A stretch of 64,000 bases of DNA, taken from Cordylochernes scorpioides (taxonomy: Eukaryota > Arthropoda > Arachnida > Pseudoscorpiones > Chernetidae). The notes beneath the pieces were generated by a model. The model worked only from the letters and a program-made list of their open reading frames with translations. It had not been told where the DNA came from and searched no databases. Made by a program: the position numbers and the translations under genes. Below, in pieces: positions 2,670 to 62,560 of this stretch. Within the stretch, counting starts at the first letter, position 1. Every line of letters begins with the position of its first letter. The stretch spans positions 19,316,702 through 19,380,701 of the forward strand of contig CP092879.1 of NCBI GenBank assembly GCA_030710605.1. The letters are read 5' to 3'.

Positions 2670-2779
2670 TAAAGGCAAAAGATGATACGAAGTTTCGTTC
2701 TGTTGGCAAGTATTCCTGGGCAGCTGACAAGGCTACATCTTACAAGGGCAGCTTGAGGGATTCAACTAATTTACTAGTG
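2670..2779 (+). pseudogene. LINE relic, part 2
   Basis: The LINE frame resumes after the mariner and reads 'KDDTKFRSVGKYSWAADKATSYKGSLRDSTNLL', the linker usually found between endonuclease and reverse transcriptase of L1-like/CR1-like LINEs. It ends at the 12-bp site (2768-2779) that is duplicated at 3489-3500 around the hammerhead-bearing insertion. Confidence 0.6.
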
Positions 2780-2966
2780 AAAAAATAGTACAAATGTAAT
2801 ATTGTACTGGGATAAGGTGCATAAATTAAGAAAAAGGCATCTCCTTATCGTGAAACTGAAAGTTGCTGATGGCTTGCGCCATCTATCGGAATAAATATCA
2901 ACTATTCTCGTTGATTTTTAATTATTCCAGAATTGGACAAATACCCATTCTTGATTAATCAAGAAA

Positions 2967-3020
2967 AGCTAACCACGGACGCGTTTCGGGCTGTTGGCCC
3001 TCATCAGCGTGGTGCAAGCT
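2967..3020 (-). ncRNA. Hammerhead ribozyme, copy A
   Basis: Reverse-strand copy of the motif described for copy B, identical over all 54 nt. It has the core CUGAUGA, stem II GGGC/GCCC with loop CAACA, GAAA, a two-pair stem III, and GUC at the predicted cleavage site between 2978 and 2977. Stem I pairs ACCACG with CGUGGU and AGCU with AGCU. Confidence 0.85.
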
Positions 3021-3291
3021 GTACCTCAACGACCAAAAAAAAAAAAAAAAAATTGGTCATTAAGGCATCCTTGGCGCAAGCCATCAGCAACTTTCAGTTG
3101 CTCGATAAGAAGAAGCCTTTTTCTTAATTTATGCACCTTATCCCAGTACAATATTACATTTGTACTATTTTTTCACATTGTGTAGCGTTCTCACGCAATT
3201 CTGGCCTTAACTACCCGTTTCATGATTTTTCAGGATGCCTTAATGACCAATTTTTTTTTTTTTTTTTTTTTTTTTTTGGTTGTTGAGGTAC

Positions 3292-3345
3292 AGCTTGCAC
3301 CACGCTGATGAGGGCCAACAGCCCGAAACGCGTCCGTGGTTAGCT
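3292..3345 (+). ncRNA. Hammerhead ribozyme, copy B
   Basis: All invariant parts of a type I hammerhead are present in order. Stem I 5' strand is 3299-3304 (ACCACG), core CTGATGA is 3305-3311, stem II GGGC (3312-3315) pairs with GCCC (3321-3324) around loop CAACA, and GAA is 3325-3327. A minimal stem III (A3328-T3333, C3329-G3332, loop GC) leads to the GTC triplet with cleavage expected after C3334. Stem I then closes with CGTGGT at 3335-3340, an internal loop, and AGCT/AGCT. Such short stem III versions are known from Penelope-like elements and satellite hammerheads, where they cleave best as dimers. Activity here is inferred from the fold only. Confidence 0.87.
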
Positions 3346-3488
3346 TTTCTTGATTAATCAAGAATGGGTATTTGTCCAATTCTGGAATAATTAAAAATCA
3401 ACGAGAATAGTTGATATTTATTCCGATAGATGGCGCAAGCCATCAGCAACTTTCAGTTGCTCGATAAGAAGAAGCCTTTTCTTAAAAT

Positions 3489-3859
3489 AATTTTCTAGTG
3501 GAAGACTCCACAATTGACTCACAGGTCAAAATGCTTACAAGTGAAGTCCAACTGGCAATGTCAAGGGCGGGGATGATGACTAGGAAAAGTTCAACATAGC
3601 TAAGTCTCAGAGCTGCTACCAAATAACTCCACAAGACCTAACACGACGTGGTAAATCCATGTATAGTAACTTTCTTTGCCTCCAATTTGTCCAGATTAAT
3701 CTATTAACTTGATTGTATTTATATAATTTTCCCTGTATATAGATAGATATCATGTTACCATTAAGTTCTATTACTGTTTTTCCTTCATGTTATCCTATAT
3801 TTCTGCTTGGAGAATCTGTATAAGACTAAAAGGTCTTAATAAAGCTTTTGTTGTTGTTT
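3489..3859 (+). pseudogene. LINE relic, part 3 with 3' tail
   Basis: After the hammerhead insertion the LINE frame continues ('NFLVEDSTIDSQVKMLTSEVQLAMSRAGMM') and soon meets a stop, followed by an AT-rich 3' UTR. It ends in 'TAAAAGGTCTTAATAAAGC' and a (TTG)n tail at 3848-3859. The 3' UTR matches 56560-56856, which ends the same way. The reverse transcriptase is deleted. This is the 3' end of the LINE begun at 892. Confidence 0.6.
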
Positions 3860-7900: not shown

Positions 7901-10900
7901 TATTTATTTATTTGGATTTGGTCTTATTACCTTGTTTTTATAATCTACTAGATGAATGACCTGGCTTCGCCTGAGAATTCCCCTGAATGCAATTTCCTTC
8001 ATACTGAAATAACATCAATAATAAATGGTAGAAGTGCCATAGAATAGCAATACAGGTTTATAAAAAGCGACATGCAAAATTTGGTACCAATTGGTTCAGT
8101 AGTTTTTGAGTTTATCGCGAAACAGACAGACAGACATTGACTTTTATATCCCTATATATATAAAAGTCAGTGTATGTATGTATGTGTGTTTGTTCCTATG
8201 TCGGCTATACACGTCCACAATACGTAACTAATCTGACTGAAATTTTAACAGTATATAGAGTAGAATCTGGAAAAACTTATGGTGAAAATTTCAGGTCTCT
8301 ATCCCGAATATTCTTCAAGTTATTTGCAAATTGCTTTGCAAATTTGCCCTTTCGCTCGCAAGCAGCGCCTCTAGCGGTGAAGATGGGAGATAATATCAGT
8401 TGACTTAATGTACATGTAAAACGTGTTTTAACAGGACGTAGAGAAAAATCTGGAAGAGATATTTTTTGGATTTTTAGCCAAGAAAAATTGAAATTGACAG
8501 GTTGTGGGCATAAATAGTTGTTTTTTAGTTAAAAAATGATGATGACAATATTTCTGTATCATATTTGATTATCAGATGCAAATTCATATCAGGAAAAATT
8601 CCAAAAAGCAGAGACCACGGGTGAAGCCAGTTCTTTTTTAGTATGCAGGGACAAAATTCTAACAGAAAAACATTCATTTGAGTAGAAGACACAAAGCCAG
8701 ATCATCTCTTTATAAAATATCGCTTATCAGACATAAAGTTTGGAGCGGGACGTTTCACAAGAGTGACATCCACGGCGCCAATTTATAATTGTTACGAATA
8801 GTATTTGAATAAAAACATTTAATCGGGTAAAACCCGGGCGTTGCCCGGGTCATTCGGCTAGTATAAGATAATAATATAAATTAGTTTTAAAAATTGTAAA
8901 AAAAAAAAATGCATCGGCCGGGAATCGAACCCGGGCCGCCCGCGTGGCAGGCGAGCATCCTACCGCTGAACCACCGATGTTTATAAGAAATGGCCATATT
9001 TGGGTATTTATTCCATTCACAAAAGCAAACGATGACAGAATTGATTGTTGATGACTCTGATACTTGTATAATCTACTAGCCGAATGACCCGGGCAACGCC
9101 CGGGGTTTACCCGATTAAATGCTTTTATTCAAATTCTATTTGTTACAAATAAAATTGGCGCCGTGGATGTCATTCTTGTATAATATATAAATGAGTTTTA
9201 AAAATTGTAAAAAAAAAAAATGCATCGGCCGGGAATCGAACCCGGGGCGCCCGCCACTATAATATATAAATGAGTTTTAAAAATTGTAAAAAAAAAAAAA
9301 ATGCATCGGCCGGGAATCGAACCCGGGGCGCCCGCGTGGCAGGCGAGCATTCTACCACTGAACCAAAAGCAAACGGTGACAGAATTAAGAACGCAAGACG
9401 CTGATAACTGTATATATTAATATATAATCCAAATTGTGCCTTATCAAGAAAGCATTAAGTATGCAAATGTTTATTTTATAAATAAATCCAATATAAGGCA
9501 GGATCTATATACAAGAAATGTGACCATGTTTCTTTTTTAAATAAATTCAATATAAGACAATAACACACTATCTATATACAATAAATGAAACCCAGATACA
9601 AGAAAATAAGATAAAATAAATTAATAGTGTGTGACGTTTCAGTAACAGCATTGTTACCATCATCAGACAAAAGAATAAATGAGAAAAATGATGATGAAGG
9701 TAACAATGCTGTTACCGAAACATTGCACATTATTAATTTATTTGAATTAGGTCTTATTTTCTTTTAACTATAATTCAAATTGTGCTCTATCAAGAAATGA
9801 GACCATAAAGCATTTTTCTTTTTTAAATAAATCCAATATAAGGCATTAACACATCATTTATATACAAGAAATGAAACTGTTAAATATGAATATCACTTTC
9901 ACATTTGACAATGTGATCCTGAAACCAAACCAGGATGTAAAAACTATTATTTCCTTATGTTGGTATCAAAAATAGATCCATTTTTATTAGTCTCCAGTTT
10001 TGATTCAAATATTATAGAGGTTGGCAAAAGCAATTGTCTGCAAAGATTATCTCATCATAGCTGCTGAAATGGCATCTGTGCATGATGAACTTCTTGAATG
10101 TCTTATATCTAAAACTGCTGCAGGTATCAATTGACAGCATATTTTGAAGTTTGTTAGAACCTATTTGACAACTGTCATTCAGAATCCTTTTTATAAATTA
10201 CTTCAAATATAGTTTTTACATTTTATACTGGTATTATATGTTTGCCAGATGGAAAAGTTGAAGTTTATGTAGAATACCAGGGTAGAACACCCTACCAAGA
10301 ACTTTTTACTTTTCCCGAGGTATACAATGTGTTATTGGGACACATATGAATTTTCCATCACAATATAAACCTACAAGATATTGTGCTAAAAAATAAAAAA
10401 CTTGTATGCTGCCTCCCTCTCTCAAGTATATTAGATATACAATATAGTAACAAAGTATCCAGAAATTTTTGTGCCTGGAGTATGTACAGTAAAACCCCTC
10501 TATAGTGAACCCCAATAGGACAGAGCTTTTGGTTCACTATAGCCACGGTTTGGCTATTTTTTATTTTTTTTTACTTTTCAAAATTTTTAGACCGTATAAT
10601 TAAAGGACAGCCATACACACAAGAAGAAGCTGCCTCTTAACAGTGGTCACTTTGTTTTAATTCCCTTAATTGACCAATTACCTTACATTAATACTGAATA
10701 ATAAAAGAAATCATTAGATGATAGGTTCTTCTTATCATTAACATACATGTACCTCTATGTCTAATTTAAAAATCAAGACAAATCCTAGGCAAAGTTTTAT
10801 TAAATATATATTCAAAAATATAAAATGATTTTAAAACATCTTTATCACATTATATAATACAATGTTTACTTGGAAAAATGGCTCTAATATCTAGTTGCTT

Positions 10901-22900: not shown

Positions 22901-25900
22901 CGAAATAGGTTCGTTATAGGGGTAGTTCATTATTCTAAAAATCGCAAAGTTCGTTATAACGATGGTATTTTCAATGGAATGGAATTGGGAATCGGCGTGG
23001 GTTCGTTATATCCAGGGTTCGTTATAGCGGGGTTTTACTGTAGGTAATTTGGTTGGGATTCAAAAACTGGTTGAGAATTATATAAAGTGTAATAGTTTGT
23101 TTAATTTAAAAAAAAAAAAGGTTATACTATATTTTATCCCTCATTGTTGTCAATAATAAAAACAAGTTCCTCTAAGTAAGTGTTATGTTGCCAGGGTGGT
23201 GCATACACCTGGACACACTGAGGACCACATTGTCCTTCACCTCCAAGAAGATAACGTTCTCTTAAGTGGAGATTGTATCCTGGGAGAGGGCACTGCGGTA
23301 AGTTGGCTTATCAACCTCATAAGTTGGGTAATCACCACTATATTATCAAAAGTCCAAAATTGTGAGGAGTTTCTTGTTAACATCATCATGAAATATAAAA
23401 CAGCCTAATGTAATACTACAGCGGTATGGTAGATTAAACTGGTGAAACCACTGGGAGAGTTCCCCACTGATGAGCCAACCCCTCCCATTATTTTGTCATT
23501 GCAGTAAGGGCAGTAGAAAATTGCTTTATTTTAAAAAGAAACATACGTGTCAAAAATAGTTTCTTATAATCATCATGAAATGCCATCTCCCATATGGAGG
23601 TCACCATCATGGTCACTTCCATGATATGACTTTGGGGCTGATACTATGTGAGAGACAGGATCAAAGTTGCCTCTTTTAGACAAGTCTCTGATCAAGGCTA
23701 GGGAGATTTGCCCTGGGTTTGAAATGAATCTTAGTTCTAAGAAGCTCCATCTGTCTTGCCTTGTATTTAGGTTTTTATGTTGCTTTTTATATAGTCAGTA
23801 TTGTCACACCATACTCTGGTGATACTACTTCTGTAGGTCCATCACTGCCTTTTTGATAAATCTTCTAAAGGGAAATCCTGCTCAGATCATAGATAGCTGA
23901 AGGCCTATTCCCTACCACCAGGTGAACTCGCCTGGTAAGCTACTTGTTGCCTTAGACATGTTATAAGTACATTATTTCAACTGCAGAGCAACAACTTTGT
24001 AAAATCTACTGCCTGAAATTCTCTGAAAAGGTTGTATTTCTAGGATGCCAGCAACAACATGATGCCATTTTTTATTAGAAATTTACACTAATATATATTG
24101 CAAAGGATTTTTTTTTTAAATAAATACAGTATAACCCCTCTATAACAAACTGTTTTAATGTCCATCTATACAGAGAGAAAAACAACAACTGACTCACCCG
24201 TGCTGGCAAGGTCACGCTCCGCTGCGTCACGTGGGAAAACATACGTAGATGTTTTCTTACATGTTCTCAGCACATCCCCCTTTTTAAGACTTGAAATATA
24301 TATATACATAACAAACTTTAAATGCATAATATAATTAATAATGAAGGCGATCCACAGGTTTAACAATTCGTCCACTCCGGGTTCTTATCTGGCCGTCTTC
24401 TGAGTCGTTAGAGGGATAATCCACAACTGGGGTCTTTTCATTTTCAACCAGTTCCTCCTCCGAAAAGGTCGGCGTCGATGGGTCGGCTGGATATTGCACT
24501 GTAACTCCTTTTCGTAGATGGAACCTGTTTCGACGTAAAGTCTCAACTGGAGTATCAACCATATATGACCTTGGTGTCGATGCTTTCTGCTTTACAATCC
24601 CCCAGGTACGCATATCTGTAATCCAAACCGTGTCACCTTCGGATAGCTCCTCCATGTCCGTAGCGCCGCAGCGTCGATCATATCTGGATTTCATATCCTT
24701 TCTCCTTCTCCCCTCCTTTCTTTTCAGGGTCTGAGAGTCCACCAACTTTGGATTAAGATTCTCTGGTGCAATTGGCAAGGTCGTTCGGAGTTTACGTCCC
24801 ATGAGAAGCTCAGCAGGGCTGTAACCGTTCTCCAAAGGGGTCGATCGATACTCCAGGAGTCCAAGCGATGGGTCTTGATTTTTCTTGAGGATCAACTTAG
24901 CAATTTTCACACCTGCTTCTGCCATCCCATTGCTCTGCGGGAATCGAGGACTTGAAGTGACATGTGTGAATCCGTACTGCCTTGCGAAATTTGCAAACTC
25001 ACGAGCAGCTCCAAATTGCGTCCCATTATCGCTTACAACAGTTTCTGGTCGAATACCGTCTTCATCCAGTATGTGCCCAAGAAAATTAATTCTTGGCACG
25101 CCAAAGACACACTTGGCCTTGTTTAGTGTAACTTTCGCCTCTTTCAGTTTTCGGAGCACTAAACGAAGAATTCGATCGTGAGTCTTGGAGTCGGAGGCAA
25201 ATATCAGGATATCGTCCAGGTAACACATTACACCGTCCATGCCTTGCAAGATTATTGACATAACTCTCTGAAAATACTCTGGGGCGAGTGAGATTCCAAA
25301 TGGCATCCTGCAGTATTTATATCTCCCAAAAGGAGTGATGAAGGTCGTTAAATGCTGGCAGTCCGGGCTCAACGGAATCTGGTGAAAGCCACTGTTTGCG
25401 TCCAGTTTCGAAAAGAATCTTGCTTCCCCCAGTTGCCCCAGCATGTGCTCCACCACTGGCATAGGATGCACTTCGCGCTGTACATGTTCGTTCAGCCTTG
25501 AGAGATCCACACAGAGTCGTATGTCGCCATTCGGTTTACCAGCAATCACAGTCGGTGCACACCATTCAGTCGCAACGTTAACTTGTGCTATGATTCCCGC
25601 CTTCTCGAGCTCTTCCAATCTTGTTTTGAGCTTTTCCATCAAAGGTATTGGTACCCGTCGAGGAGTATGCACAGCATATGGTTTTGCTCCAGGTTTCAAT
25701 TTGATTTCGTAAGGGTTTCCGATCTGTCCCAGTCCTTCAAATACTTCAGGAAATTCTTTGATCGGGTTAATTCTCGTCGCAACCACTTCAATCCGCCTCG
25801 CCAGGTTCAAGAGCTCACATGCCCGGCGACTCAGAAGAGGTTCACTCAAACGACGAATGACATAAATCTTCTCCTTGATTTCATAATTGCCATTTCGCAG

Positions 25901-28900
25901 CGTTGATATAAACATACCCACAGTCTGAAGTTCGGAGAATTCAGCAGCTCTAAGGTTGATATCACTTTCCACCAGTCGTTGCTGTCCCATTATCTTCTTG
26001 AAGAGACACAGAGGAACACATGTAACATCCGCCTGGGAGTCGAGCTTGAACTTCACCTTTTTCCCGTTCACTTGGATTTCTGCTGTCCATCGCCTCCTGC
26101 ACTCGCCTTCATCATCATCGAGATTAGATGAATCCTCCACAGCTGAGACCTCCAGGAGAAAACCAATTTCTTCATCAAGTTCAGAAACAGCTTTGACTTC
26201 CGCAGTCTTCGCCTGCTTATCTGGGCAGCAATTTGCAAAATGGCCAGTTTTTGAACACAGGTTACATCTTTGTCCTTCAGCACGGCAGGCCTGTCCTTCC
26301 CTGTGGGTGAAACCTCCGCATTTTGGACATCGTGATCTTGTTTTGGCTGACTTCTCCTTCTTTCTCGAAGGTTGCTGTTGTTGTTTCGGTGATTGTTTCT
26401 TCGAGTTGAACTTCACCTGATTGACCTTTTGGCTTGTTGAGGGACGCTGCAGGTCGACTTGCTGCTGTCGAACGGCTTCCTGCTGTCGAACCATTTTCAC
26501 CGCCTTTTCCAAAGTCAGTTCGCTGTCCAACTGCATTCTTTCAAATAAAGCTTTGTCCCTCACTCCAACCACTATTCGGTCACGGATCAACTGCTCATGA
26601 AGACCCTCAAATTCGCAACTATCAGCCAATTTGTACAATGAAGTGATGAATTCGTCCACTGGCTCCCGATCCTCTTGGATTCTTGAATTAAATTTCGCAC
26701 GTTCGTAGATAATATTCTTTCTGACACAGAAGTGGCTGTCGAACGCCTTGAGGACGGAATCAATTTTCGTTGCCTCTTCCTCCTTTTCGAACTTGAAGGT
26801 CCTGAATATATCATCCGCGCGGTCACCCATCAAGTACATGAACAAATCGATCTTGTCCGCCTCCTCTTTCTTCTTCATTCCACTGACCACGAGGTATCGT
26901 TCGAATCTCTTCCTCCATTTGGGCCATTCGTTGGGAGTCGAGAAGTCGAAAGTTTCTGGAGGTTGAATCTGAGCCATGTTGAATTATCTTCCAAGGTACG
27001 CAAAAATCGATATTTTGCGATATACGGGTTCGTATTTTATCCAGTTATCGCTGCCACCATGTTTTAATGTCCATCTATACAGAGAGCAAAACAACAACTG
27101 ACTCACCCGTGCGGGCAAGGTCACGCTCCGCTGCGTCACGTGGGAAAACATACGTAGATGTTTTCTTACATGTTCTCAGCACACAAACCATCCCTTATAA
27201 TGAACCTGAAATAGTCATTTTTATTTTATTATACAGTGAGAACTATGGCTATAATAAACCATGGTTATAATGAACTACAGGTTCAGTCCCATTGGAGTTC
27301 GCCTTAGAGAGGCTTTACTGTATAACAAATTCTACTGATCTTACTGCAATGAGAAGGTCTTGGTGGTGTTCCAGCAGTTTTACCAGTTTAATCTACCATA
27401 CCATTCTAATATTGTATTTGGATGATTTTATTTATATTTTAAGTAAAGTATAATATTAAAACGATATGTGATAAAATAAATTGGTGAAACCTCTGGAAGG
27501 ATGCTTCAAAACACCACAGATTAGGTAAATTTATAAGTAGGTAGGGCCCCACTAAACACATACACATAGCCACAACTACACCAATGTCTACTGAAATACC
27601 TACCTACCAGCAACACTTTATATTCAACACCAACCTTATCCATACCAATCCAAAAATAATACCTCTCCAGAAATTCTTAGATCAATAAGCCTTCAAATAA
27701 TTGTAAACACCAATCCATAAATCATTAAAATTTTAATCAAATAGCAGTTTTACTATAAAATAGATATTCTGACAGCAGTGTCTCTAATAAAACTGACACA
27801 ATAGAAATAAAATCATTAAACATTACCAGCCTCTTCAGCTTTAACAAATCTCAATGTGGTACTTCAGGCTATATAAGTCATCCAGTCTTCACAGACCCTC
27901 AAGTCTATCCCTCAAGAGCTGCTTCACAAGTTACTTTATGAAAGAAAGAGCTAAAACTGTAACGACCTTCAACAACAAAAAAAACATCATCATTTTGCAT
28001 CTCACATAGACATTCGGGAAATGAAAATGCAAATGCATTATGTAAATCAGGAGTCTTAAAAGAATAATAAACACCATTAAACCTAGTGATACAGACTACC
28101 TACACCAGTTCAGAGCTAGCCTTGGGAAGTAAAAGGACACCATTGATACAGCAGCAATATAAAACCAATCTCTTTCACATTGATTACATCAGGATTGCAA
28201 TGTTTAGAACAGGCCACTTGACACCATTGACATTGAGGGGGGGTGAGAAAACTCTCCCACTCACCATCAAATGCCTCACAAACCCCCCTTCACTTCATCA
28301 CATTTTATACTGCATTGGATCAAATGGAAAGAGCTCTTCCTGAACCCTAAAGAGGTTTTTGAGAAAGCTGGATGTGCACACCCTCTGGTGTGAAGACTGG
28401 AACCACCATCTAATGACATAGTGTCCCCTGTCTCCCAAATGTGGTTCCCATACAATGAAAGAGTGCAGTGCTAAGACTCCTAAATGCAGTAGATATAAAA
28501 TGAATGCTAATTCACTGGATTCATGAGAATGGTTCAACAGAAATTTAACTCAAATTTAGTAAAATAAAGGTCCTCAAAAGTGCTCAAATCATTGAATACT
28601 CTTCAACTTGTCTGGACTTGAGTAGCCCTGCTGAGAGAAATTTTGTCTTGGTACTATTACAAGAACTCCAGCATCCCTGCAGCAGGGTCCAACTTTACCG
28701 CACAATAGGATCTGTCTCATGATCCCATTTCTTATAATATGCTGCTGTGATAATAGAAAATCTCCAACTAAGATTTTTTCATCACTTTGCAACTGCAAAC
28801 ATTTGCTTTGTCATGCATGAGATAATGACTTGACAATTCCTATCTGAAATGTAGATCTTTTTGCCATTAGTTGACATTTTCTTGAGATGTAATTGAATTT

Positions 28901-31900
28901 CATCTTAAACTCTCTCTTCTCTATAATGAGGTGTTTTACTGTGGTCATTTCAATATAGAATTGTTCAAATGGAGGGATTGAGGAATTCCTTTGTCTGTAG
29001 TTAATAGATATGGCATGGGAAGAGCATTCTGTCATCAACCTTACTTTTGTTCTGTTGGCCTGGCAGACAAAATTACTGATTGGATTCCCTACCACACACA
29101 CACACACACCAGGAATTGTCTGACCACAATAGACTTCAGTTTACATTTTTTTGCTCCAAGCCAAGATGATCCACACTTCTACAGGACAAATAATATCAGC
29201 ACAATGACTTCAATTTCATAAAACCAATTGTAAGGCATTCTACAGAGTCCCACACTTATGCAATGAGTGATTATGCGAGTGATCCACCTTCTTTGAGCAA
29301 TCGAACTACTTAACAAAAAAAATGTTTTATTCCTGCCCATAACCATCTTCCTTTCTTCCCAAAAAGGAAAAATGCTTTTTTAAAAAATATTAAAGTTTTC
29401 ACTTAAACCCCAAACTCTCTAAATTGAACTCCACCCAAGTTGACCTCTTCAAAGGCAGTGTACTTGGAAACAACAATGCAGCACTGTAAAGTGAGTCTTA
29501 TAAGTATTATACAAAAATATCTTTGTTGTATTCCAATTGATTACACACAGCGCTCAACGTTAATTATACTTTAATTAACTATAAGGTAAAGGGAATATAT
29601 ATAGATTAAAAGTAAACACACATGGAGAGAAGGAACATGGCGTGGCGAGACGCCGCAGGTAGGGTTACATCAACAGGAAGTGAGTCAGCTCTAGGGTTGC
29701 CGAGTAGCCAACCGTCCGCCGCCAGGGCTCCAGCAATCTCCTCCCTCGAAGTGACCTCCTATTCATGGATCACTTCGCCGCTTAAGAGTCTCGAACGATG
29801 AAGTTCGTGCAGGTTTCTCCCCAGTGGCTTGGTCAATATGTCTGCTCGGTTTCTTCCACTTATTTACTTCGGTACTGAGGAGTTCAATTGAGTTCTGAGC
29901 ATTTCTCTGGTTCCTTAGGATCATTGGATGAGATCGAGTAGGAGAAGGCTTCACAGTATCTTCATTATGGCTGTCCTCTTCTGTAGGTGTCACGTCTTCT
30001 TGATCTAATAAAGACACTGGAATCTCTTCAATCTCCCGTTGTGTCCCATAGCTGTAGTGTTCAACTGATGGAAGCACCTCCCGGTTGCTGTCGTTCCTCG
30101 ATACATCACTCTCTTTGAAGACACAGTCCCGAGATTCCACCACTTTCTTCATCTCAGGAATCCACACTCTGTAGCCACGTCCTCTGAGTGCATATCCAAC
30201 AAGGTTACCTTTGACAGCTCTCCTTTCGAGTTTGGATTTACGGACTTGTTTTGGAATATGGACAAATACTTGACAGCCAATAGCTCTTAGGTGTTTAAGA
30301 CTAGGCTTATTCCCTGTCCACAGTTCATATGGCGTGCTTTCACCATTGTGATTGTTGAGAACTCTGTTTCTGACATAGGCTGCGGTGTAAGTCAGCTCCG
30401 CCCAGGAAGCCTTTGGCAGACCACTTCCAGATATAGTGCTCCTGACAAGATCTAGGAGTGTCCTATTCATTCTTTCAGCCACACCATTCTGTTGAGGTGT
30501 ATACGTCATAGTGTGTTCATGAACTATTCCAACGCTCTTGCAGAAAGTGTCCCATTCTTTGGAACAAAATTCCAAGCCATTATCCGTACGTATCCGTTTT
30601 AGTTTCCGGCTGGTTTGTTTCTCAGATTCTTGAATCCACTCTTTGACTTTTCCCAGGGTTCCGCCTTTGTTTTTCAGGAAAAATACACTTGTATATCTCG
30701 TAGATTCATCAATGATGGTTAAGACGTACTTGGCTCCTCCCCAGCTCAATACGTCGAGTGGACCCATCAAGTCCGCATGCACCAAGTCCAATGGCATGAT
30801 TTCTTTTTCCTCCTTGTGTGAGTGTTGAAGGAATGGCAGACGGTAAGACTTGCCGATCAAGCAGTCTTCGCACTTTTCTGGCTTTGCCGGGCTGCAATCA
30901 AGTCCTCTTACGCTTTGGTTCTTGGCCATCTTTGCTATCGTATATGCATTTACATGCATCAGCCTTTTGTGCCAAAGTTCCAGTGTAAGCTCTTCCTTGC
31001 ATTCAGATACAAGAGAAACACGATCATTCTGATCTATCGGAGAGGATGGAGTAGTCTGGACGTAGTAAAGTCTACCCAACTTCTTTCCCTCTATCAAGAG
31101 TTTACCTTTCATGTCCATAATGTGGCAACCACTCTTGTTGAAGACAACTTTTCTACCGTTTTCTATCATTTGGAGTACAGACAGAACACTGTGACGCATA
31201 TCTGGAACATACAAGGTGTTCTGGGCAACCATTTTGCTGGCATCTCCCTTGTTTCCAACAATATTGGCACTGACAGTACCGATACCACATGCTTCTATAG
31301 AAGAGCCATTCGCAATAGTGATGGAACTCATATTGCTTGTGCACTCTTTCAGACATGTGAAGTAATCTCTCTTGGGAGTCATATGGTGCGTCGCTCCAGA
31401 ATCTATGATCCAGGTCTCGGCGGTAGCTCCAAACAAAGTGTTGCACATTGCCGACATATTTACGCCTTTGTTTTGGTCAAACCTCTTTGGTCTTTGTTCA
31501 TTCTTTCCTTTCTTCCTGCATTCCCTTGCATAATGGCCTTTACCTCCACATTTGAAACAAACAACCTTTGCTTTAAATTGTTTTTTCTGTTTCAATGGGC
31601 TTCGAAGAGGCATTAACGACCATGGCACCCACATCTTTTGGTAGATTAGACGAACGCCTTTCTGCTTCTGCCAACAGCCGTCTTTTAACTGTGGCGGTCG
31701 TGAAGTCTGAATCAGGCAAGTTACATATGGTTGAGACAACGGTGTCCCAATCCTCTGGTAATCCACCCAAAAGAACCATAGCCAAATCGCCATCATCAAT
31801 TTTGTCGCCAATTTGGGCCAGTTCGTTTACAATGTAGTTTATCTTCCCCATATACCCTTCCATATTGCTGTGCTGAGTCAACCTTTCGCCATATAACTGC

Positions 31901-34900
31901 CTTCTTAGTTGTACGGCTCGATATCTACTATCCTTTGGTGCGTATAATTTTTCCAGTTCCTCCCAGACCTCTTTCGGAGTATTCAAATGTTGAACATGCA
32001 ATTGTTGTTCATCATTAATCCCGAGGCAAATTTTTGCAAACGCCTTACCCTCCCGCGACAAAAAAAGTTTTGTTGCAACAAGGTCACTAGGGTCAGGCTT
32101 AGCCTCTCCTGGATTGATCAAACTCCACAAATCGTTTTCGATTAGAACGAGTTTCATCTGGAAGCTCCAGCTGGAGTAATTAGCACCATTTAATTTTGTA
32201 ATTGTTGTGTTTGCCATTTTACAAAATATTTGATAAGTAGAAAAAAGGATGTTCCAAGTAATCAAAGGAAATTTTGTTACTCACGTTTTAGGCTTCGCGC
32301 TTCTTCAGTCTGACGTTTTAAGTCTTGCGCTTCTTCAGTCTGACGTTTTAATCCTTGCGCTTCTTCAGTCTCATAATCTTTGTTGTATTCCAATTGATTA
32401 CACACAGCGCTCAACGTTAATTATACTTTAATTAACTATAAGGTAAAGGGAATATATATAGATTAAAAGTAAACACACATGGAGAGAAGGAACATGGCGT
32501 GGCGAGACGCCGCAGGTAGGGTTACATCAACAGGAAGTGAGTCAGCTCTAGGGTTGCCGAGTAGCCAACCGTCCGCCGCCAGGGCTCCAGCAATCTTAAT
32601 GAGCATTTGCAGTGAAAGAAGGTTAAGCTAAAAATGGAAGCATGGAAAAAGACCTGTGAAATCTCTTCTGGATATAAGCATATTAAAAAAAAAAAAAAAA
32701 ACACTAGTAAGTTCCAGCCACTAACTGCACTCCCAACTGGCTCTGACTTTACTGAAACCCCACGAGACACGTTTCACACCATTGTTGTGGCCAGATTCCT
32801 TCACACACGGCCATCATAATCTTGGCTCTAGTAGACTTTTGTATGTACTGATGGTTAAACTCTTCCGACATTATTTTAATTATTTAGAATATAACTTCTC
32901 TAATTAAACTGACTACTAATCAACACTTACTCCAATTCAACCCTTTTGCAAATCCTACAATTTTTTTTTAACCACAGAAAAAGTGCTTCTCTAGATACTC
33001 CGTCTGTAATAATGGTGCAGTCATGTTTGTTCCTCTTTCTTACCCCACCCCTGGATTCAGGAAACTCCTAAGAAGTCTGATCCTAATGGTTAGACTTAGT
33101 TAGAGAGAAGGGTTCAAGCCGCATCTAACCAGTTTGGATTTAGAGATCATCTCTTTTTTCTACTACAGTAGAACCTCTCTGTAAAGGACACCACATTGCA
33201 GAGCTAAGGTGTCCTTTAGGGAGAGGTATCCTCTTACCAGAGAGTTGTTAAATAGTAAAAATGATAATTTTGCAAATTAAAACTGTCCTTTGTAGAGAGT
33301 TGTCCTCTAGTGCAAGTATCCTCTCACGGATGTTCTACTGTTCTACTTCTCTGCAATCCTTTGCTTAAAATATAGGATAGAGATTCTCAAATAAAAGATT
33401 CCATATAATGAGACATTTCTTTTAGAAAATTATATAAGATTGTTTAAAAACTACAAAAATGCCTTCATAATAATAAAAGGAAACTCATTGTAAGCAAATG
33501 TTTGTAGTTCACAATTTTATCTTGAATCATGAATAAGTTTGTTTACTTAAAGCATTCAAACATAGTTTACTTTTTTCTTTCAACAGCAAAGGTGTGTTTG
33601 ACAACATCCTCTTTATTGTCTGATAATGGTAACAATGCTGTGTTACCTTTCGACCCTCCATTTGAGTATTCTGCCTACATTAAGTTACAATGAGTGCTCT
33701 ACCAACATGTGCATACTTATCAAACCATTTTTAACACATTGCATTATGAGACTTGTAATCTGGGAGATGTTAAAAAGTGTCTTTAAAGGATGTCTCCCTC
33801 ATTTGTATTTACTGTGAACTCTTGAGGAGAACCCCATTATAGATCATATGGCCATTTTCAAACCTGTGCTGATAATATGATTGCTCTTGTCCCACAGAAA
33901 TACTAATCAATACACACTATCCCACAGGAAACATTCATTAAGATAATTGAACAGTGTGTCCTATACAATCTGTAACTTAGTCTCAGAAATGGCAGGCTGT
34001 TTCTCCTCAGACCCCACTCCAGAATGGCCATTCATCTGTGGCATGTAACATACATACCACAAATCTTTATTAAGGCTTATAGTCTTTTACATGGATTCAC
34101 CATCAAGTATGCTTTGCGCAGAGGCGATATCATAGCCCATGAGGATCTTCCGAGGCGCGATTATTGCTAGTTGAAAACTTTACCCACCATCAAGTATGCA
34201 AAGAGTTAAAAAAGCTTAGTTAAGACAATCAGTTTCACACATGGAGAGATTTGTATGATAAGTCTATAAGGAAAACAAAAATAATAATAACAAAAACACA
34301 GATATTTACATATGATAACTGCATACATAAGTCTTTAGTTAGACCATTCATCTTTTACAAAAATTATTCCTACAAAGAACGTGATAGTAAGAAGTTAAAA
34401 TTTACATGAATTATGTATGAGAGATTTGAATATCAATGGAAGTTCACCCAGTGGTACTGGGGGTGTTGTTTAACAGCATGTGATGGATGTCCACAGAATG
34501 TACCCTTGATTTACCTAGGCAACCAATTTCAATTTTGGATTCCTCTACCTGTAATAGTTCTACCAGCCTTTTCTTCCCCTGAATGGTATCATAATTCTGC
34601 AGGATTCTCCTCCCTCTTGATTAAGAAATCTAGGCAGGAAATGATGTGTATCTGCAAAGATGCACTACTCTCCCTATTTTAATCAAGCCTTTACCATGTA
34701 GACTAACTTATCATCCTTGTTACAGGACACTTCTTATCTAATCTTCAATGTGACAGATAGCTAAAAAGATAGAACTGTGCCAGCATATCCAGTTTGAATG
34801 GCGCACCTATCTATACTGAATCCTACTCTCCTATTTCCTGGCCTTTAGAGTGACTAAAGTACTTACCTCATGCCTGTGTAATTGTGTTGTGGTATGAACT

Positions 34901-44814: not shown

Positions 44815-45088
44815 CTAGCCGAATGACCCGGGCAACGCCCGGGGTTTACCCGATTGAATGCTTTTATTCAAATACTATTTGTTACAATTATAAATTGGAG
44901 CCGTGGATGTCATTCTTGTATAATATATAAATGAGTTTTAAAAATTGTAAAAAAAAAAAATGCATCAGCCAGGAATCGAACCCGGGGCGCCCGCGTGGCA
45001 GGCGAGCATTCTACCACTTAACCAAAAGCAAACGGTGACAGAATTAAGAAAGAATTGTGTATGACGCTGATAACTGTATATATTAATA
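44815..45088 (-). mobile_element. Helitron carrying tRNA-Gly sequence
   Basis: 3' end CTAG and hairpin CCCGGGCAACGCCCGGG (44815-44843), GGATGTCATTC block, flank TATAATATATAAATGAG, then the complement of tRNA-Gly (44959-45025) without its 5' acceptor strand, and the 5' end TATATACAGTTATCAGCGTC. The T arm has small changes (GCCAGGAATCGAACCCGG). Confidence 0.8.
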
Positions 45089-46853: not shown

Positions 46854-51746
<4,893 letters not shown>

Positions 51747-55405: not shown

Positions 55406-55745
55406 TACTGTAGTTAGAGTCTCTCTCGACCGAGGAGACAATTCTGGTTATTTATGATTGTCTCCTCACCAGTGGTAAGTTTTAACAGATACTATTGTAG
55501 TTAGAGCGCCTCTCTACAGAGGAAGTACTTATGGTCAGTCTTGACTGTCCCACTTCCAGTGGTAAGGTCTGAAAGATACTACTGTAGTTACAGTCTCTCT
55601 CGACAGAAGAGATAATTCTGGTTATTTCTGATTGCTCCTCCACCAGTGGTAACTTCTAACAGATACTATTGTAGTTAGAGCGCCTCTCTACAGAGGAAGC
55701 ACTTATAGTCAGTCCTGACTGTCCTTCCACTCTAAAAAGCATGAA
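55406..55745. repeat. Higher-order tandem repeat with internal hairpins
   Basis: Four monomers of about 86 bp in the order A-B-A-B (starts near 55406, 55492, 55579, 55666). A and B share CTACTGTAGTTAGAG at the start and CCAGTGGTAA near the end but differ between. The A1 monomer contains the perfect hairpin GAGGAGACAAT/ATTGTCTCCTC; B monomers contain GGAAGT/ACTTCC and GTCAGTC/GACTGTC. The A-B dimer (about 174 bp) is the true repeating unit. Confidence 0.8.
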
Positions 55746-58686: not shown

Positions 58687-58955
58687 CTAGCCGAATGACC
58701 CGGGCAACGCCCGGGGTTTACCCGATTAAATGCTTTTATTCAAATACTATTCGTTACAATTATAAATTGGCGCCGTGGATGTCATTCTTGTATAATATAT
58801 AAATTAGTTTTTAAAATTGTAAAAAAAAAAAAAAAAATGCATAGGCCGGGAATCGAACCCGGGGCGCCCGCGTGGCAGGCGAGCATTCTACCACTGAACC
58901 AAAAGCAAACGGTGACAGAATTAAGAACGCATGACGATGATAACTGTATATTATC
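58687..58955 (-). mobile_element. Helitron carrying tRNA-Gly sequence
   Basis: CTAG and hairpin at the 3' end (58687-58715), GGATGTCATTC, flank, T-run, then tRNA-Gly complement at 58840-58903 lacking the 5' acceptor strand, and the 5' end ATACAGTTATCATCGTCATG. One to two changes from 44815-45088 in the tRNA part. Confidence 0.82.
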
Positions 58956-61818: not shown

Positions 61819-62560
61819 CTAGACGAATGGCCCGGGCAACGCCCGGGTTTTACCCGAGTGCGAATATATTTTAAAAACGTTGTCTTGGGTGGTCGCTATA
61901 GACAGGGTGGTCTGTATAGACAGGTGTATGTATCACACAGCTGATAACAGGGTTGTCTAGAGTGGCCGCTATAGACAGGGTGGTCTGTATAGACAGGTGT
62001 ATGTATCACACTGCTGATAACAGGGTTGCCTAAAGTGACCGCTATAGACAGGGTGGTCTGTATAGACAGGTGAATGTAACACACTGATGATAACAGGGTT
62101 GCCTAAGGTGACCGCTACAGACAGGGTGGACTGTATAGACAGGTGGATGTATCACACAGCTGATAACAGGGTTGTCTAGAGTGGCCGCTATAGACAGGTG
62201 TATGTATCACACAGCTGATAACAGGGTTATCTAGAATGGCCGCTATATACAGGGTGGTCTGTAAAGACAGGTGGATGTATCACACAGCTGATAACAGGGT
62301 TGTCTAGAGTGGTCGCTATAGGCAGGGTGGTCAGTGGTCGCTATAGACAGGGTGGTCTGTATAGACAGGTGGATGTAACACACTGCTGATAACAGGGTTG
62401 TCTAGAATGGCCGCTATAGACAGGTGTATGTATCACACAGCTGATAACAGGGTTGTCTAGAGGGGGGCAGGGAGGACACGTGTTCGCCGGCAGCCAATGG
62501 GCGCGCATTCTATCCGTGAGCTTCAGACATAATAAGGCAATTATATATATATAGATATAT
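61819..62560 (-). mobile_element. Non-autonomous Helitron/Helentron with minisatellite core
   Basis: 3' end at 61819 (CTAG, GACGAATGG, hairpin CCCGGGCAACGCCCGGG, TTTTACCCGA) and a probable 5' end near 62560 (TATATATATAATTGCCTTAT on the - strand). Most of the interior is a 73-bp tandem repeat. Its 3' end lies 14 bp from the 3' end of the oppositely oriented Helentron at 61804. Confidence 0.65.
61889..62461. repeat. 73-bp minisatellite, about nine units
   Basis: Unit starts at 61889, 61962, 62035, 62108, 62181, 62236, 62309, 62334 and 62407. Six are 73 bp, two are 55 bp (the same 18-bp deletion of GTGGTCTGTATAGACAGG) and one is a 25-bp stub. Each unit reads GTGGCCGCTATAGACAGGG, ...CACACAGCTGATAACAGGG, TTGTCTAGA. 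The recurring 18-bp deletion lies between two copies of 'TATAGACAGG' inside the unit, so slippage explains it. Confidence 0.9.

Follow-up and report, generated by a model that had tools for sequence, protein, structure and literature searches.

The window, a 64,000-nt stretch of Cordylochernes scorpioides DNA, carries a short non-coding mobile element with a hammerhead motif, present as two opposite-facing copies (Table 1). The two copies, their orientation, their unequal 3' ends, a period of 359 nt, intact hammerhead sites and a target-site duplication can all be read directly at the locus. The bounds of the insert (2780-3488, 709 bp) given in the first-pass annotation hold on re-examination. 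Target duplications of 12 bp had also been described; a duplication is present, although it measures 12-13 bp and includes one mismatch. An equally good match was reached by 53 of 2,000,000 random 13-mer pairs. The duplicated bases are A+T rich, whereas the target flanks (57% A+T, compared with 65% in the window) are not notably so.

Table 1. Features of the insert and its target site (positions in the window)
Feature	Position	Strand	Remarks
Left target-site duplication	2767..2779		TAATTTACTAGTG; 12 bp without the first T; 12/13 identical to 3488-3500
Right target-site duplication	3488..3500		TAATTTTCTAGTG
Minus-strand copy of the unit	2780..3071	-	292 nt, 5' end 3071, 3' end 2780; without the 55-58 nt linker
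3' extension (tail)	2780..2825	-	46 nt; minus copy only
Type I hammerhead motif	2967..3020	-	54 nt
Head-to-head junction	3071..3072	.	copies joined by their 5' ends
Plus-strand copy	3072..3488	+	417 nt, ~1.16 rounds of the 359-nt unit
One full 359-nt unit	3072..3430	+	
Linker	3174..3231	+	plus copy only
Type I hammerhead motif	3292..3345	+	54 nt; cleavage predicted after C3334, by position
Second copy of the 3' part of the unit, shortened at its 3' end	3431..3488	+	direct repeat of 3072-3132

The plus-strand copy runs from the 3' part of the unit through the linker, a T tract and the hammerhead into the 3' part again, and thus contains a partial direct repeat (61 nt, period 359). Its homology stops at 3485; 3486-3487 are extra bases and 3488 lies in the duplication if this is 13 bp long. 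The minus-strand copy comprises ~0.8 round of the unit, begins just beyond the linker and extends 46 nt 3' of the last homologous base of the plus copy. At the junction of this tail with the target, unit and target overlap by 3 nt (CAC). The inverted junction brings together differing parts of the unit, and no palindrome was seen there (best 12-nt arm match 5/12). The inverted arms span 232 nt at 96% identity, and the insert had been taken for a foldback unit. It lacks the symmetry of a foldback. Towards their ends the arms no longer mirror each other, and matching terminal inverted repeats were not found (left terminal 46 nt against the reversed right terminus, 8/46); the direct repeat of the plus copy had been missed.

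When the flanks are joined, the empty site has an open frame that runs for 72 codons before a stop, the last 32 lying on the far side of the join. As this frame is continuous across the join, it supports a single insertion, in line with the earlier proposal that the unit went in as one piece. The target had been called a LINE, which is plausible when judged by eye and from the open frame across the join, but Pfam named neither of the two short target pieces. A mariner-type element with a Mos1-like frame sits between both presumed LINE parts. This Tc1/mariner-type element, just left of the insert at 1594-2670, has 26-bp ends that match each other; its transposase frame is broken and similar to Mos1 (PDB match, E 1.2e-4).

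The two 54-nt hammerhead segments are letter-identical in the hammerhead sense and lie on opposite strands. Each has CUGAUGA, a GGGC/GCCC stem II with a 5-nt loop, GAAA, GUC and a six-pair inner stem I, which is followed by an internal loop (UUGC/UA) and an outer AGC/GCU stem. All core nucleotides, stems I and II and an open stem I are present, as in type I hammerheads. The identical pair with all its elements, noticed in the first-pass annotation, was confirmed by sequence identity and by a strict descriptor (core, 4-bp stem II, GAAA, the A-U pair of stem III and the next pair, UH, 5-bp stem I). This descriptor found these two sites alone in the 64 kb, and none in 100 Mb of random order-2 Markov sequence with the trinucleotide make-up of the window. 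As sequence motifs, the hammerheads are well beyond chance.

A search of both strands with a hammerhead covariance model had been proposed, and it gave a match in rank but not in score. An Rfam cmscan of 2700-3600 (901 bases), in which the clan's best model alone is listed, placed Hammerhead_HH9 (RF02275) first on both strands with 26.5 bits (E 3.4e-4), below the gathering cut-off of 52; a default Rfam scan of the whole window did not report a hammerhead. The motif shares with HH9 the core, the GCUGAUGAG junction, a CAA-type loop II and the UU.C/UA internal loop of stem I, but it scores half of the gathering value and has a much shorter stem III. The exact ribozyme pattern was absent from prokaryote genome contigs, as expected for animal DNA. 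Seven IMG/VR loci with the ribozyme pattern are chance matches, since a stem II of 4 bp or a stem I of 5 bp forms in none of the seven, none can be aligned to the element and none is named by Rfam at gathering.

Stem III does have the two pairs described earlier, but they enclose a loop of 2 nt, too tight for a normal hairpin. Its ACGCGU is self-complementary, which suggests that the predicted type I hammerhead would work best as a dimer. In the isolated 54-nt motif, the centroid fold corresponds to hammerhead stems I and II, and the minimum-energy fold has extra non-native pairs; 21 of 200 shuffles fold equally well. Whichever strand of the insert is transcribed, the ribozyme's complement is made before the ribozyme itself, and the arms pair along 232 nt; for these reasons the inverted copy is probably silenced. 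The predicted fold of the whole insert reaches -463.3 kcal/mol. Cleavage by a transcript of the whole insert is doubtful, and a long hairpin would probably form instead.

The underlying unit, repeated directly with a period of 359 nt, is of the retrozyme type. It falls in the range of ~170-400 nt, has one type I hammerhead and lacks a coding part; read as a circle, it has 36.8% G+C and a longest ATG frame of 51 aa, with no reverse transcriptase (RT) or GIY-YIG frame. At this locus its partial tandem is a 1.16-mer. Folded as a circle in the hammerhead sense, the unit reaches -101.2 kcal/mol (shuffle mean -65.6, sd 4.7, z -7.6; 0/200 shuffles as low), with 63.5% of bases predicted to be paired. 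This fold keeps hammerhead stems I and II, and at minimum energy it adds non-native pairs that involve the core and the cleavage-site bases. The antisense unit is also below 200/200 shuffles, with a less extreme z of -3.7. With the T tract shortened, z becomes -7.0 for sense (0/200 as low) and -3.0 for antisense (2/200). In the circular fold 40 of the 58 nt of the linker are paired, 22 of them with 3352-3378 behind the hammerhead. Only 2 of 150 linker shuffles reached the energy of the real fold, from which the linker seems, in this folding model, to belong to the unit.

Metazoan non-LTR retrozymes are described as units of 170-400 nt with type I hammerheads, which occur as linear and circular RNAs whose circles are strongly self-paired (Cervera and de la Pena 2020, PMC7229834). 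Like them, the insert is non-coding, has one hammerhead per unit, a size within their range, low G+C, predicted strong self-pairing, a partial tandem and a target-site duplication of more than 4 bp. It differs from that description in being a head-to-head inverted pair and in the long T tract of its unit. Its helix III is weaker than that of most invertebrate retrozymes described there, and closer to that of the amphibian retrozymes that work as dimers (PMC7229834).

The arrangement of the copies resembles that of Penelope-like elements (PLEs). In the account of Penelope families of the rotifer Adineta vaga, inserts have head-to-head inverted pseudo-LTRs (pLTRs), partial tandems and a tail at one inverted 3' end; target-site duplications, when there are any, measure 8-10 bp (PMC3846280). 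Some of these inserts have no duplication, or direct pLTRs alone, so the PLE layout is variable; solo pLTRs exist as well (PMC3846280). A curation guide likewise figures individual PLE copies with inverted pLTRs and short 3' extensions (PMC8969392). The purified PLE protein of the anole (Poseidon, Anolis) is reported to cleave and extend both target strands in vitro, to have two start sites whose spacing matches the tail, and to use what seems to be mainly unprocessed RNA as template (PMC11167929). The insert has a head-to-head inverted copy and a partial tandem inside one short target-site duplication, together with an uncut hammerhead, as such insertions do (PMC3846280, PMC11167929). Its tail is found on the minus copy only and, at 46 nt, is longer than the 30-40 bp quoted for PLEs (PMC11167929). 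It differs from PLEs in lacking an RT or GIY-YIG frame, and from the rotifer inserts, whose inverted junctions are reported with palindromes (PMC3846280), in lacking one. Among the 120 relatives listed of 3641 for a PLE probe, none matched the window and none bore the name Cordylochernes, only part of these entries being named.

A link to PLEs and retrozymes, proposed when the motif was first noticed, gains support from the layout and from the 359-nt unit. The companion idea that an inverted arrangement would be an unusual non-autonomous form fares less well, because head-to-head copies, partial tandems and one-sided tails recur in published PLE insertions (PMC3846280, PMC8969392). The inverted pair is best read as a signature of insertion and not as a new element design. 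Since this layout is known from PLEs, it hints at the machinery that moves such elements.

The insert is probably a 359-nt element of the retrozyme kind that entered in a single event, in which a PLE-type enzyme would have copied onto both nicked strands of the target. It is real and of a known kind, and at this single locus its layout speaks for mobilisation by PLEs. For the steps, which include an RNA circle, an enzyme, priming on two sides and mobilisation in trans, we infer the following order. The template would be retrozyme RNA, either multimeric or closed again into a circle, in which the hammerhead site had stayed uncut or been re-ligated; both copies cross an intact cleavage site, which points to template RNA that was unprocessed or re-ligated. 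Transcripts of a tandem array would account for the 1.16-mer equally as well as a circle. A Penelope-like reverse transcriptase/endonuclease working in trans would bind the RNA, nick the target on both strands 12-13 bp apart and prime reverse transcription from each nick. The first cDNA, of 417 nt, would cover more than one full round of the unit; the second, of 292 nt, would begin 46 nt further downstream, probably on another template molecule. The cDNA ends would then be joined head to head, and repair would yield the duplication. In tandem or circular form the hammerhead could give rise to unit-length RNA. More tentatively, circular hammerhead RNAs could be direct substrates of the PLE enzyme, with two separate circles used to prime both target strands; we consider this possible but would not rely on it.

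Over the 245 nt that align between the copies there are five substitutions, four of them within 15 nt, and the indels lie mainly in the T tract. Such crowding has P ~0.003, in a test framed after seeing the data. The two copies of the 3' segment on the plus strand agree with each other at the crowded sites and differ in the length of a T run and at the very end. Because the differences are crowded in the minus copy and the plus-strand copies agree, the pattern favours two separate template molecules over one copied fold. Alternatively, the minus copy may have acquired the crowded substitutions later, in a burst of mutation.

The region concerned is 2835-2853 compared with 3459-3476, where four substitutions and one T indel fall within 19 nt of otherwise near-identical sequence. 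A GCAAC/GTTGC hairpin is broken there in the minus copy.

The same retrozyme unit might instead have been inserted by a LINE, with twin priming on RNA in multimeric or circular form leaving a 5' piece inverted. Both the length of the target-site duplication and such a 5' inversion agree with that process, and the insert lies in or beside a presumed LINE. However, twin priming on a single RNA normally splits one copy and would not duplicate ~245 nt, the two copies look like products of different templates, and neither 3' end carries poly(A). A one-sided tail, too, is a mark described for PLEs (PMC3846280). On balance this route is unlikely.

It is also quite unlikely that the insert is a solo non-coding remnant of a PLE, made up of pLTR pieces that an autonomous element left at this site without its reading frame. 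Solo pLTRs are known (PMC3846280), the insert has the PLE layout, and the minimal stem III recalls the minimal type I hammerheads that PLE pLTRs carry (PMC7761336). However, the non-coding period is 359 nt, whereas the repeat period of a PLE is the whole element, and the linker takes part in the fold of the unit. Moreover, the motif aligns to HH9 at loop II and at the internal loop of stem I, whereas PLE hammerheads, compared by description only, are said to be without helix III or loop contacts (PMC7761336).

Self-primed synthesis, in which the second copy is made from the first on an antisense template, has been proposed for head-to-head PLE structures (PMC3846280). Under this model the inverted junction should hold a palindrome, but the best arm match there is the 5/12 given above, and the crowded substitutions separate the two copies; disfavoured by the junction in particular, the model is very improbable here. 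As it has the same element and enzyme as insertion from two templates, the confidences given to the different explanations overlap, and their total slightly exceeds one. A DNA foldback or MITE with the hammerhead as a passenger can almost be dismissed, for the 232-nt inverted arms and the short duplication fit it, but the unequal ends speak strongly against it, a transposase acting on terminal inverted repeats would need matching ends, and there is a partial direct repeat within the insert.

As movers of animal retrozymes, PLEs are named as candidates on the grounds of co-occurrence and common hammerheads (PMC7229834). A retrozyme-type unit in PLE layout is anatomical evidence on the mover, at one locus. 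The idea can thereby be tested through a count of such footprints in genomes; if PLE enzymes do use circular hammerhead RNAs in the way suggested above, an inverted pair of retrozymes whose tail is on one side only would be the footprint tying metazoan retrozymes to PLEs. Among the matches listed (titles and abstract openings) none reported retrozymes as an inverted pair or from an arachnid, and such reports may still exist; the term hammerhead ribozyme was likewise absent among the 10 matches listed, of 1,403, for Cordylochernes scorpioides. In another listing for this species, the one paper that names it concerns Wolbachia.

Other repeats and genes are found elsewhere in the window. A U4 spliceosomal RNA gene or copy lies at 34110-34245; it scores 71.6 bits and is weak in its 3' part. 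A good tRNA-like gene, on the minus strand, is accompanied by three decayed near-copies (8910-8980, 9302-9370, 44961-45029 and 58846-58901 for the four), with one near-copy inside an 81-bp tandem (9179-9335); together they may be a tRNA-derived repeat family. Of the long minus-strand frames at 24335-26983 and 29763-32280, one has RT and integrase domains, and the Pfam domains of the other look like those of a copia-type polyprotein. Exons of a poly(A)-binding protein gene are found at 46958-48416; the gene matches PABPC4 of the pseudoscorpion Cordylochernes scorpioides at 98% along the entire query, and the other 119 hits listed are all at 75% identity or less, so that the window is very probably from this species. 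Satellite-like tandem arrays with periods of 87/174, 73/146 and others lie at 55406-55724 and 61879-62462.
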